The notes below the pieces were generated by a model. The model made no database searches, was not told where the DNA came from, and was given only the letters and a program-made list of their open reading frames with translations. Shown piece by piece: positions 32,563 through 37,109 of a stretch of 64,000 nt of DNA. Position numbers and translations under genes: made by a program. The stretch lies in assembly GCA_017302635.1 (NCBI GenBank), contig JAFLCX010000002.1:186001-250000 (forward strand). The letters run 5' to 3'. The first letter of the stretch is position 1; the number at the start of each line of letters is the position of its first letter. This DNA is from Hyphomicrobiales bacterium. GTDB lineage: Bacteria > Pseudomonadota > Alphaproteobacteria > Rhizobiales > Beijerinckiaceae.

Positions 32563-33054
32563 TCAGCCTTCCTCGTCATCTCCCGGAATATCCGGCTCGT
32601 TTTCCAGTTCGCTGGCGTGCTGGGAATGTTTCGCCATACCCTTTGACAACCGGCGCAGCAGCTTGCGCAGGCGCTTGGCGTCCTTGTCGTCGAGGATATC
32701 GTCGATTTCCTCTTCCATACGGCCGATGAGTTCGGCGATCCGCTCGAGTTTTGCCCGGCCGTCCTTCGTCAGTGAAACGAGAACGATCCGCGCATCATCC
32801 TCGCGCGAATGGCGCTCGACCAACCCTTGGGCGGCCAGACGGGTTACAGTTTTGGAAACGGTCGGCGGGCGCACCCTCAGAGCGCGCGACAATTCACCCA
32901 TTGTTGCGCCTTCCGTCTCGGCCAGAGCCTGCAACACAACCTCCTGCCCGGGGAAGATCCCGATCTCGGTGAGGAGTTCCGCCATGCGCGCCCGATAGAG
33001 CCGGGACGCCAGCATCAATTGCTGGCCCACTGTCTTCTGTGAACTGTGTTTCAT
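32563..33054 (-). CDS. MarR family transcriptional regulator
   Basis: A 163-residue MarR regulator. The winged helix region reads ATMGELSRALRVRPPTVSKT, then VTRLAAQGLVERHSREDDAR and IVLVSLTKDGRAKLERI. A charged C-terminal tail (DDILDDKDAKRLRKLLRRLS) follows. The ATG at 33052-33054 has GGGGCGG upstream; the long in-frame extension before it lacks any fold signature. It is divergent from the polyamine gene cluster, and a TTGGC-N9-GCCAA palindrome lies in the gap. It may therefore regulate itself or ornithine decarboxylase. Confidence 0.88.
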   Translation of the reverse strand: MKHSSQKTVGQQLMLASRLYRARMAELLTEIGIFPGQEVVLQALAETEGATMGELSRALRVRPPTVSKTVTRLAAQGLVERHSREDDARIVLVSLTKDGRAKLERIAELIGRMEEEIDDILDDKDAKRLRKLLRRLSKGMAKHSQHASELENEPDIPGDDEEG

Positions 33055-33151: not shown

Positions 33152-33238
33152 GATGACAGCGCGATGACAGCAAAGGTCAGTGCTTTGGCTTGCAAGGTGC
33201 GGAACACACAGTTTTGAACAACTGGCCAAGATAACGTC

Positions 33239-33267
33239 TTGCATCGCTGATCGATTATCCCTATACA
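33239..33267 (+). promoter_or_regulatory. Sigma70-type promoter for ornithine decarboxylase leader
   Basis: TTGCAT (33239-33244), a spacer of exactly 17 bases, and TATACA (33262-33267). This is the best consensus-like promoter I noticed in the window. Transcription would start near 33274, giving a leader of about 497 bases before the ornithine decarboxylase ATG. That length fits the structured leader that follows. Confidence 0.6.
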
Positions 33268-33379
33268 CCCGCTTGCCCAATTTCGCACGTGCCTGTGGTT
33301 GCGTGCTGGTCGGTGGATCTCCGGACAAGAGGCCGGAAAAACGCCAGTCGTCGAGGGTGAGCGCCGCAAGCCTCACCCC

Positions 33380-33770
33380 CTATGAACGGACCAGCAGCCG
33401 GAGGCGAACCGGCGGCCCCGCCCGAAGCGGGTGACGCAGCTCAAAGCAACGACGGAGCGGGCTTTTTTGGTCTCTGCCGGGTTCCAAGTCCGGCAACCGA
33501 AGAGGCTTGTCCATCTTGCCGGGCGTGCGGTCGGGTATTCCCCTACCAAGCGATGGCTCCGAGAAAACGTTGGTTGCGTTTTTCGCATCCGGCGCCTTTC
33601 GACGACCAACGGCGCAGCGTCACCGCTGTCTCCTGCCCCTCTCCGGGGTGGAAGGCAGCACGAGTGTCTTTCGAATTCAGCCCCGCGTTTCCACCCTGCG
33701 GACCGGATAATGAAGGCGCTCAGATGTTCATCGCCATTTGCGGCCCGGAAGGCCGTCAGGGGATGCTGCC
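33380..33770 (+). ncRNA. Structured 5' leader of ornithine decarboxylase, speF-motif-like
   Basis: About 390 bases without a credible gene but full of hairpins, directly before an ornithine decarboxylase. Pairings seen are CCCGC-CCGAA-GCGGG (33417-33431); GCCGG/CCGGC (33476-33494); CGTTGGT (33568-33574) with ACCAACG (33605-33611), enclosing TGCG-TTTTT-CGCA (33575-33587); and CTGCC/GGCAG (33633-33658), enclosing CCCC/GGGG. A second GCGGG at 33457-33461, followed by C and six T, could compete for the same CCCGC arm. The speF RNA motif is known upstream of ornithine decarboxylase genes in Alphaproteobacteria (Corbino et al.). I assign this by position, length and structure, not by recalled consensus. 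Confidence 0.55.
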
Positions 33771-34904
33771 ATGACTGACCGTATTCGTGACTATCTTCGC
33801 TCGCGCCCGGCCGACGGCCCGCGCCTCATCGTCGATATCGACGTCGTTCGCGACAATTACCTCGCCTTTTCAAAGGCGATGCCGGACACGCGCGTGTTCT
33901 ACGCCGTGAAGGCGAACCCCGCGCATGAAATCCTTGAGCTTCTTGCGAAGCTTGGCTCGTGCTTCGATTGCGCCTCGATCGGCGAGATCGAGATGGTTCT
34001 GGCTGTGGGTGCCACGGCGGATCGCATTTCGTTCGGCAACACGATCAAGAAGGAGCGCGACATCCAGCGTGCCTACGAGCGTGGCGTGCGGCTCTTTGCA
34101 GTCGATTGCGAGGCTGAGGTCGAGAAGATCGCGCGCGTTGCGCCTGGCTCGAAGGTGTTCTGCCGCATCCTGTGCGATGGCGCGGGCGCTGAATGGCCGC
34201 TGTCGCGCAAGTTCGGGTGCCAGCCGGAACTCGCGCCGCGCATTCTGGAACTTGCCCATCGCCTCGGTCTCGTGGCGCATGGCCTGTCGTTCCATGTCGG
34301 CTCGCAGCAGACCAATCCGAAAATGTGGGATGAGGCGCTCGCCTCGTCTGCCGCGATTTTCCGCGACATGGCGGAGCGTGGCATCCAGCTCGGCATGATC
34401 AATCTCGGCGGCGGTTTCCCGACGCGCTATCTGCGTGATATCCCGGCCGTGCGGGCCTATTCGGATGCGATTTTCGATTCGCTGCGCAAGCATTTCGGCA
34501 ACCGCATTCCGGAAACGATCATCGAGCCGGGGCGTGGCATGGTCGGCAATGCCGGCATCATCGAGAGCGAGGTCATTCTCGTCTCGAAGAAGTCGGATGA
34601 TCCGAGCGAGCCGCGTTGGGTCTATCTCGATATCGGCAAGTTCCACGGCCTCGCGGAAACGATCGACGAGGCGATCCGCTATCCTATCCGCACCATTCAT
34701 GATGGCGGCGAGATGGGTCCGTGTGTGATCGCCGGGCCGACCTGTGATTCGGTGGATGTGCTCTACGAGAAGACGCCGTATCTGCTCCCGTTCAGCCTCG
34801 AGATCGGCGACAAGGTGCTGATTGAGGGCACGGGCGCTTATACTACCACCTATTCCACCGAGTGCTTCAACGGCATGCCGGGGCTGCGACAAATCGTCAT
34901 CTGA
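33771..34904 (+). CDS. Ornithine/lysine decarboxylase (group IV, type III PLP fold)
   Basis: A 377-residue eukaryotic-type decarboxylase that makes putrescine from ornithine (or cadaverine from lysine). The PLP lysine is Lys47 in FYAVKANP. The phosphate-binding glycine loop is NLGGGFP (211-217), EPGR is at 252-255, and the catalytic cysteine from the partner subunit is Cys325 in GPTCDSVDVLYEK. The ATG at 33771 has GGGGA about eight bases upstream; an upstream in-frame start lacks one. The HVGSQQTNP stretch fits ornithine-type enzymes. It is followed by a GNAT and homospermidine synthase, and preceded by a long structured leader that probably senses a polyamine-pathway signal. Confidence 0.93.
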   Translation: MTDRIRDYLRSRPADGPRLIVDIDVVRDNYLAFSKAMPDTRVFYAVKANPAHEILELLAKLGSCFDCASIGEIEMVLAVGATADRISFGNTIKKERDIQRAYERGVRLFAVDCEAEVEKIARVAPGSKVFCRILCDGAGAEWPLSRKFGCQPELAPRILELAHRLGLVAHGLSFHVGSQQTNPKMWDEALASSAAIFRDMAERGIQLGMINLGGGFPTRYLRDIPAVRAYSDAIFDSLRKHFGNRIPETIIEPGRGMVGNAGIIESEVILVSKKSDDPSEPRWVYLDIGKFHGLAETIDEAIRYPIRTIHDGGEMGPCVIAGPTCDSVDVLYEKTPYLLPFSLEIGDKVLIEGTGAYTTTYSTECFNGMPGLRQIVI

Positions 34905-35029: not shown

Positions 35030-35575
35030 ATGATCACGATTGATTCTGAGAAACTCTTCGACATTCCACAGCGGGAAATGCTGCTGGATCAAAGCTTTGG
35101 GCCGTCGCGTGGGCTGAAGACATGCGAACGGCTGCGCGAGGGGCGCCTACCCTCGCGCGGGCTCGCTTTCGTGGCCCGCGGGAATGATCAAGTGCTCGGC
35201 ACGATCCGGCTCTGGGACGTGGCGGTGGGAACAAGGCCGTTGCTGATGCTGGGGCCGCTTGCGGTTTCGCCAGCCTGCCGGGGCATCGGGCTCGGCAGCG
35301 ATCTGATGGTCCATGCCCTCGCGCAAGCGCGGCGCCTGGGCCATCGTGCGATTTTTCTGGTGGGTGACGCTCCGTACTACAATCGGTTTGGATTTCACGA
35401 GAAGGCTGCCGAGGGGCTGGATCTCCCCGGTCCCTTCGCGCGCGAGCGCCTGCTGGCCCTCGAGATCGAACCGGGGGCGCTCAGCGGTGTGAGCGGGATG
35501 GTTCGTCCGACCGGACCGGTTCCGCTGCGTCCTGAGAATGGCGAGGCTGCCCGCGGTTTCCGCGCTGTGGCCTGA
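35030..35575 (+). CDS. GNAT family N-acetyltransferase (YhbS-like)
   Basis: A 181-residue acetyltransferase. The acetyl-CoA site is visible as LLMLGPLAVSPACRGIGLGS (motif A R-G-I-G-L-G-S), then DLMVHALAQARRLGHRAIFL. VGDAPYYNRFGFHEKAAEGL follows, typical of YhbS-type proteins. The ATG at 35030 has GAGAGGA about nine bases upstream. It lies between ornithine decarboxylase and homospermidine synthase, so a polyamine acetylation role is tempting. However, YhbS homologues occur widely, and the sequence gives no substrate. Its ribosome binding site may be sequestered in a small hairpin. Confidence 0.85.
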   Translation: MITIDSEKLFDIPQREMLLDQSFGPSRGLKTCERLREGRLPSRGLAFVARGNDQVLGTIRLWDVAVGTRPLLMLGPLAVSPACRGIGLGSDLMVHALAQARRLGHRAIFLVGDAPYYNRFGFHEKAAEGLDLPGPFARERLLALEIEPGALSGVSGMVRPTGPVPLRPENGEAARGFRAVA

Positions 35576-35672: not shown

Positions 35673-37109
35673 ATGACCCAGACCTGGCACAATCACGGCA
35701 CCATCACCGGCCCGATCGTCATGATCGGCTTTGGCTCCATCGGTCGCGGCACCCTGCCACTGATCGAACGGCATTTCACCTATGATCGCAGCCGCTTCGT
35801 GGTGATTGATCCGGATGACTCGGATCGTAAACTGCTGGATGAGCGCGGCATCAAGTTCATCCATGCCGGTGTCACGCGCGAGAACTATCGCGACATGCTG
35901 AAGCCGCTGCTCACGGCAGGCGGAGGGCAGGGCTTCTGTGTCAACCTCTCGGTCGACACGTCTTCGCTCGACATCATGGAATTCTGCCGCGAACTCGGCG
36001 TGCTTTACATTGATACCGTTGTCGAGCCGTGGGTCGGGTTCTATTGGGATACCTCGGCGGGGCCGGCTGCGCGCTCGAATTACATGCTGCGGGAGACGAT
36101 TCTTGCCGCCAAGCGCAAAAATCCATCGGGCACCACGGCGGTTTCGTGCTGCGGCGCCAATCCCGGCATGGTGTCGTGGTTCGTCAAGCAAGCGCTCGTC
36201 AACGTCGCGAGTGACCTTGGTCTGCCTTTCGAGGAGCCCACGACGCGTGAAGGTTGGGCAAAGCTCATGCGCGATGCAGGTGTGAAAGGCGCCCATATTG
36301 CCGAACGCGATACACAGCGCGCGAAAAATCCGAAGCCGGCAAATGTTTTCGTCAATACGTGGTCCGTCGAAGGCTTTCTCTCGGAAGGCATGCAACCTGC
36401 TGAACTCGGCTGGGGCACCCATGAGACCTGGATCCCGGAAAATGGCCGCAAGCATGAAACCGGTTGTGATGCAGCGATTTACCTCCTGCAGCCCGGCGCC
36501 AATACGCGTGTTCGCAGTTGGTGCCCCACGCTTGGTGCGCAATACGGGTTCCTCGTCACACACAACGAATCCATTTCAATAGCCGACTACTTTACTTTGA
36601 AGGATGGTGATGGTAAGGTACTCTATCGCCCGACATGCCACTATGCCTATCACCCGGCCAATGATGCAGTGCTTTCGCTGCATGAACTGTTCGGGAACGG
36701 TGGCAATCTGCAACCTGAGCATCACATTCTCGATGAGCACGAGATTGTCGATGGCATCGATGAACTTGGCGTGCTGCTCTTCGGTCACAAGAACAATGCC
36801 TACTGGTATGGATCGCAGCTTTCGATCGAGGAAACGCGGGCGATCGCTCCCTACCAGAACGCCACCGGCATGCAGGTGACGTCGGCAGTGCTCGCCGGGA
36901 TGGTCTGGGCTCTGGAAAACCCCAATCGCGGCATCGTGGAAGCGGACGAGATGGATTACAAGCGCTGCCTTGAGGTGCAATTGCCCTATCTTGGCCCGGT
37001 GCGTGGCTTCTACACCGACTGGACGCCGACGAAGGACCGCGAGAAGCTTTTCCCGGAAGATGTCGACTATTCCGACCCTTGGCAGTTCCGGAATATTCTG
37101 GTGCGGTGA
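35673..37109 (+). CDS. hss: Homospermidine synthase
   Basis: A 478-residue NAD-dependent enzyme that condenses two putrescines (or spermidine and putrescine) into sym-homospermidine, the major long polyamine of many rhizobia. The N-terminal Rossmann motif is VMIGFGSIGRGTLPLIERHF. Further signatures are LYIDTVVEPWVGFYWDTSAG, CCGANPGMVSWFVKQAL and HKNNAYWYGSQLSIEETRA. The length matches the family. I prefer the ATG at 35673 to the GTG three codons earlier. With the upstream ornithine decarboxylase it completes a two-step ornithine-to-homospermidine route. A strong terminator follows directly. Confidence 0.96.
   Translation: MTQTWHNHGTITGPIVMIGFGSIGRGTLPLIERHFTYDRSRFVVIDPDDSDRKLLDERGIKFIHAGVTRENYRDMLKPLLTAGGGQGFCVNLSVDTSSLDIMEFCRELGVLYIDTVVEPWVGFYWDTSAGPAARSNYMLRETILAAKRKNPSGTTAVSCCGANPGMVSWFVKQALVNVASDLGLPFEEPTTREGWAKLMRDAGVKGAHIAERDTQRAKNPKPANVFVNTWSVEGFLSEGMQPAELGWGTHETWIPENGRKHETGCDAAIYLLQPGANTRVRSWCPTLGAQYGFLVTHNESISIADYFTLKDGDGKVLYRPTCHYAYHPANDAVLSLHELFGNGGNLQPEHHILDEHEIVDGIDELGVLLFGHKNNAYWYGSQLSIEETRAIAPYQNATGMQVTSAVLAGMVWALENPNRGIVEADEMDYKRCLEVQLPYLGPVRGFYTDWTPTKDREKLFPEDVDYSDPWQFRNILVR

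Follow-up and report, generated by a model that had tools for sequence, protein, structure and literature searches.

Two RNAs have long been orphans: the speF motif, a regulatory RNA, since 2005, and the small RNA ar45 since 2007. In its extended form the speF element is conserved from the transcription start, and comprises a stem with a large insertion followed by approximately 80 conserved nucleotides in a long bulged stem-loop, the outermost base pairs of which are absolutely conserved (Corbino et al., 2005; PMC1273637). The same locus of S. meliloti gives rise to a small RNA known as SmrC45 or SmelC706 (PMC2780559, PMC2573895, PMC2873474, PMC7143759), which is bound by Hfq (PMC2848018). 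This RNA, ar45, accumulates as a separate species in S. meliloti (PMC2780559) and in Bartonella, where speF is found on a transcript of more than 700 bases (PMC7717549). In Salmonella, termination in the speF leader is Rho-dependent (PMC6386406). That ar45 and speF lie next to each other at the ornithine decarboxylase (ODC) gene is already known.

Here, we have analysed the ODC leader within a 64,000-nucleotide stretch of DNA from a Hyphomicrobiales bacterium (the window), together with its homologues. We propose that the 496-nt leader probably acts in cis as a single unit, adopting either of two folds that exclude each other. A single two-state leader would explain why ar45 and speF were each found alone, and would provide a concrete mechanism that is testable with point mutants at named bases. 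We have met no earlier statement of this two-fold idea in the open-licence literature.

Two Rfam families in one leader

The original prediction placed a promoter, a speF-type leader and an ODC gene at this locus, and all three are borne out: the promoter-like TTGCAT (33239-33244), a 17-nt spacer and TATACA (33262-33267) agree with it in every letter and position; an ATG is present at 33771, opening a gene product whose best PDB match is a lysine/ornithine decarboxylase; and the leader between them resembles the Rfam speF model, RF00518 (Table 1). Most of the leaders in an alignment of 137 have a CTTG-type -35 element upstream, and position 33275, where the largely invariant GCCC begins 7 nt 3' of the promoter-like site, is a plausible +1. 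Near relatives include Rhabdaerophilum calidifontis. Around the leader there are a divergent gene for a MarR-family regulator on the minus strand (32566-33054) and, on the plus strand between the ODC and homospermidine synthase genes, a small ORF (35030-35575) that is GNAT acetyltransferase-like by eye. Three ORFs of 84-130 amino acids cross the leader on the plus strand (33382-33774, 33431-33778 and 33180-33434); these are probably spurious and at risk of mis-annotation as hypothetical proteins.

Table 1. Features of the ODC leader and its genes, in window coordinates.
Feature	Position	Strand	Basis
Sigma-70-type promoter-like site, TTGCAT-N17-TATACA	33239..33267	+	sequence
Strand A: 5' terminal core GCCCAAUUUCGCACGUGCCUGUGG, 5' arm of Fold 1	33275..33298	+	
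ar45 RNA (RF02347), 5' half of leader, ends in U tract	33275..33468	+	cmscan
P1 5' arm, pairs with 33434-33441	33297..33304	+	compensatory changes
Variable multi-branched insertion on P1, holds CCCGC hairpin 33417-33431	33305..33433	+	fold
P1 3' arm, pairs with 33297-33304	33434..33441	+	compensatory changes
Strand B AGCAACGACGGAGCGGGC: Fold 1 terminator 3' arm and Fold 2 5' arm	33445..33462	+	
Fold 2 5' arm, pairs with 33496-33519	33446..33471	+	MFE and covariation
U tract (U6), tail of the terminator in Fold 1 and paired in Fold 2	33463..33468	+	
speF leader match (RF00518)	33475..33615	+	cmscan
Hairpin H1, UCCA in loop, Fold 2 apex	33475..33495	+	many compensatory pair types
Strand C ACCGAAGAGGCUUGUCCAUCUUGC: Fold 2 3' arm, invariant AAGAGGC and UUGC	33496..33519	+	
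P3: GCC 33518-33520 with GGC 33555-33557, inner hairpin between	33518..33557	+	
H3: conserved hairpin CCGCG-UUUCCACC-UGCGG	33683..33701	+	
Shine-Dalgarno-like AGGGGAU	33758..33764	+	sequence
Ornithine decarboxylase (ODC), fold III, 377 aa	33771..34904	+	Pfam Orn_Arg_deC_N 1.8e-56
Homospermidine synthase, polyamine gene 3' of ODC	35682..37109	+	PDB 4xq9/4plp, E 1e-252

Scanning of the leader with cmscan gave a speF match of 34.9 bits (E 5.6e-7 in 851 nt), so that the similarity anticipated in the original prediction is significant but does not reach the gathering score of 37, which 48 of the 69 relatives having a speF match do pass. What had been overlooked is a separate, higher-scoring match to ar45 (RF02347) that covers the full model (1-148) at 53.3 bits, above its own cut-off of 40, and thus makes this segment a member of that family. 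The speF blocks AAGAGGC, UUGCC and GUGCGG, along with H1 and Fold 2, are present in the window and in its homologues, and speF lies 5' of ODC in 68/68 genomes with an untruncated close ODC. In the window, too, the speF match is situated in the leader of an ODC of the COG0019 type.

Across genomes the two families go together. Among the 70 genomes that have ar45, 68 have a speF that begins 6-12 nt 3' of it on the same strand (mode 8); ar45 therefore forms the 5' half of this leader. The two exceptions are a genome in which the halves are on different contigs and a sub-threshold ar45 match without speF. Conversely, eight speF matches have no ar45 match; in six of these, inspection shows that the 5' core is there and that the insertions are larger, while one of the others is at a contig edge and the last is weak and has no ODC nearby. 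It is conceivable that ar45 is instead an independent trans-acting small RNA gene, located by chance 5' of a separate speF leader, as might be suggested by the co-immunoprecipitation of SmrC45 with Hfq in S. meliloti (PMC2848018) and by the Bartonella authors, who call ar45 independently expressed and hypothesise that it acts in trans (PMC7717549). We consider this unlikely, given that among about 390 genomes no ar45 at or above the cut-off was found away from speF, that the spacing is confined to 6-12 nt, and that the 3' strand of ar45 covaries with speF (see below). The two readings are nevertheless compatible, as a freed leader can still act in trans.

Anatomy of the leader

The anatomy in Table 1 was drawn from 143 leaders, with most counts made over 137 and those for Fold 2 over 142. 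Strand A has the consensus GCCCAAnnnCGCACGUGCCyGUGG, in which the terminal GCCC is found in 117/137 leaders and the last 15 nt, CGCACGTGCCTGTGG, are identical in 121/137. An invariant 8-nt perfect palindrome, GCACGUGC (33285-33292), lies just 3' of the predicted transcription start and could serve in RNA dimers or as a DNA site. P1 covaries, with a paired fraction of 0.93 vs 0.78 in column shuffles and <=0.47 when slid, and the distance from the core to the U tract ranges from 52 to 278 nt. Strand B (consensus AGCAACGACGnnnnGGGC) is followed by 5-7 U in 135/137 leaders, the H1 loop has UCCA in 133/137, and strand C has AAGAGGC in 131/137 and UUGCC in all 137. P3, the pairs of which form in 87-90 of 90-91 leaders, overlaps strand C, which puts it in competition with the end of Fold 2. 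Outside both Rfam matches, and in most cases some 85 nt 5' of the ODC start, is H3 (GCGUYUCCA..GC, with a UYUCCA loop), which is present in 129/137 leaders and shows compensatory pairs. UCCA thus recurs in the loops of both H3 and H1.

A predicted terminator closed by the 5' end

The first predicted structure, Fold 1, joins nucleotides 33275-33292 at the 5' end of the transcript (GCCC...) to 33446-33462, the strand that immediately precedes the U tract (GCAACGACGGAGCGGGC-U6). For RNA that stops at the U tract, pairing of the terminal GCCC with the GGGC preceding the Us has a mean probability of 0.90 (median 1.0; 137 leaders), so that the two ends of a 190-nt RNA form a zipper, with the putative terminator stem as its base. 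Complementarity of GCCC with GGGC is full in 115/137 leaders, and that of UGC with GCA in 137/137. As the closing pairs are nearly invariant they offer little support from covariation: two leaders have ACCC against GGGU, a compensatory change, whereas ten have ACCC against an unchanged GGGC, which counts against Fold 1. A stem directly before a U tract and a fold exclusive of it are both predicted here, which is the arrangement of an attenuator with an intrinsic terminator. Four leaders with a broken U tract keep the core, so that termination cannot be the sole role of this structure. The leaders in question are L108, L127, L027 and L119; L108 and L127 also lack the UCCA of H1, and there may be a link between the U run and UCCA.

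The original prediction had foreseen two alternative structures and a termination point near 33468, and in this it agrees with our analysis, but the switching arm is a different one. It had been placed at CCCGC (33417-33421), alternating between GCGGG at 33427-33431 and at 33457-33461, with C and T6 coming directly after this second site. These letters are confirmed exactly and the complementarity exists; however, CCCGC sits in the variable insertion and, with the RNA ending at the U tract, local pairing to GGGC has a mean probability of <0.001. Moreover, local complements to the terminator arm are no more frequent than in shuffles for 5-mers (37 vs 46.6) or 6-mers (6 vs 10.8) over 137 leaders, with 7-mers found in 5 leaders vs 1.3 in shuffles. 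We therefore regard a CCCGC switch as extremely improbable. The actual switching arm is 33446-33471, which is common to the pairing with the transcript 5' end and to that with the AAGAGGC block of speF.

Predicted capture of the same strand by speF

Fold 2 arises in full-leader folds when strand B, together with the U tract, pairs with ACCGAAGAGGC...UUGC, the speF block; this pairing and that of Fold 1 exclude each other, and both are conserved. The inner pairing joins GCUUUUUUGGU to ACYGAAGAGGC, the variable nucleotides pair outside it, and the outermost GCAA:UUGC is found in 142/142 leaders. Between lineages there are compensatory changes (GGUG:CACC, GUAG:CUAC, GGAC:GUCU and GAAC:GUUU among 142 leaders); pair 2 is GC in 107, UA in 21 and AU in 5, and pair 3 is AU in 122 and UA in 11. 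The native mean duplex energy of the outer arms is -4.41 vs -2.93 +/- 0.18 kcal/mol for permuted arms (0/5000 as low) and the pairing on 17 distinct combinations was reached by 16/10000 permutations, values that are inflated by related sequences, yet the two-sided changes occur in several lineages. RNAalifold also recovers the Fold 2 helix on an unconstrained alignment, in which one of the pairs is altered on both sides in 13 of 24 sequences. In a truncation series Fold 1 had fallen from 0.85 to 0.05, and Fold 2 had risen to 0.95, when the RNA reached 54 nt beyond the first U; the crossover takes place once approximately 48-54 nt 3' of that U are made, although these folding energies are calculated at equilibrium and take no account of cotranscriptional kinetics or protein.

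Long hairpins such as Fold 2 are of the kind that RNase III cuts, and the 3' end of ar45 might then be an RNase III or RNase E cut of this hairpin, with the U tract kept for pairing only; the four leaders that retain the fold without a good U tract would be consistent with such processing. However, the positions at which Fold 2 has U:G wobble pairs retain U in 107, 138 and 116 of 142 leaders, where C would pair better with G, suggesting selection for the U tail as well, and del Val et al. assigned the end of SmrC45 to the U run after a hairpin (PMC2780559). On this evidence we judge processing to be improbable as the origin of the ar45 end, and prefer termination at the U tract.

Other candidate pairings were considered and rejected. 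The 5' CGCACG is complementary by eye to the invariant speF GUGCGG, with a probability of 0.000 in full-leader folds. A stem GGUCUC:GAGGC inside speF was returned by RNAalifold on speF alone, because the sequence had been cut at the U tract, and likewise has a probability of 0.000 in full leaders. Accessibility of the ODC ribosome-binding site is 0.275 vs 0.318 in shuffles (p 0.005; 69 related leaders), and masking of this site is too weak an effect to build on.

What the leader might sense

The anatomy of the 5' core, with its invariant internal loops, a variable insertion and a switching strand common to a downstream fold, is riboswitch-like, and the gene it precedes is biosynthetic and neighbours homospermidine synthase. 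The core could thus be an aptamer whose metabolite ligand stabilises Fold 1 and lowers ODC expression. Set against this, in-line probing of the A. tumefaciens RNA gave no binding of L-ornithine, L-lysine, mDAP, putrescine, cadaverine or spermidine (PMC1273637), which speaks against ornithine, putrescine or spermidine as the ligand of the switch in the original prediction. Homospermidine synthase is found in 65 of 69 genomes with the leader; two genomes (G021 and G040) combine the leader with nspC, no homospermidine synthase being detected in them, and a third (G058) has neither clearly. Since leaders persist without a detectable homospermidine synthase, homospermidine cannot be the universal signal, and we rejected it as an obligatory ligand. 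A metabolite riboswitch is accordingly a possibility that we hold with considerable doubt, and one responding to homospermidine alone is unlikely.

The original prediction also drew an analogy with the arrest peptide of enterobacteria. Control by a leader peptide, as in enterobacterial speF with its ribosome arrest by ornithine and its arginine codons, might be expected from the shared gene function, orf34 being known to control speF in Salmonella (PMC6386406). No reading frame of conserved length or frame, of the speFL type, was found in the leaders: frames start from 6 codons and vary widely in length, and the sole frequent early start is a GTG inside the invariant core, without a Shine-Dalgarno sequence. 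The analogy therefore finds no support, and a leader peptide is very unlikely here.

Proposed mechanism

We tentatively suggest, as one candidate account, that ar45 and speF together make up one regulatory RNA whose switching strand is that of the terminator, with the U tract included; the core at the 5' end would sense a putative signal that sets termination, and capture of the U tract by AAGAGGC after read-through would commit the RNA to ODC expression, possibly altering P3, H3 and translation. In the underlying model of the leader, which we judge probable, the 5' end (33275-33292) would zip onto 33446-33462, outward from P1, and the last four pairs, GCCC:GGGC directly before U6, would act as an intrinsic terminator that frees ar45 as a stable short RNA. 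Should polymerase read through, strand C (33496-33519) would be made and would capture 33446-33471, including the U tract, in Fold 2, dismantling the base of the terminator and hiding the U tail within the ODC mRNA. Fold 2 cannot itself prevent termination, because strand C lies 3' of the U tract and is made after it; the decision must then lie in whether, or how fast, the core closes on strand B. We infer that termination is regulated, that Fold 2 has a lock-in role and that a signal exists, with ODC control most likely residing in the ease of closure between the 5' core and strand B. In that core the invariant internal loops resemble a binding site for a factor or ligand, and they are the most probable target of a signal. 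More speculatively, UUGC is common to Fold 2 and P3, so that the state of the switch could pass downstream.

Comparison with known systems

Transcription-attenuating riboswitches likewise have a conserved domain whose closing strand is common to a downstream alternative fold, but here the alternative partner lies 3' of the U tract and is thus no classical antiterminator. The enterobacterial speF leader (orf34/speFL) is similarly a long ODC leader with premature termination; it differs in having a leader peptide, which is absent here, and no sequence relation to it was found. The enterobacterial speF decarboxylase also belongs to a different protein family from the ODC of this locus.

The speF element of Corbino et al. 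has the same gene and the same conserved blocks, and in outline it fits the succession of strand A, P1, insertion and Fold 2. Judging from their text by its length (approximately 78 nt here) and position, Fold 2 would correspond to the 80-nt stem-loop. In that text we found no mention of a terminator or a competing fold, both of which are proposed here. The Rfam speF model (RF00518) begins after the U tract and so is without the 5' arm of Fold 2, and the genus of the window falls just below its cut-off. As for ar45/SmrC45/SmelC706 (RF02347), positions 33275-33466 match the full length of the model with the same 5' end and the same U tract, but what is filed as a small RNA gene is here part of an ODC leader, its 3' strand being common to speF. 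This suggests that Rfam has split one element into two models that have a functional strand in common.
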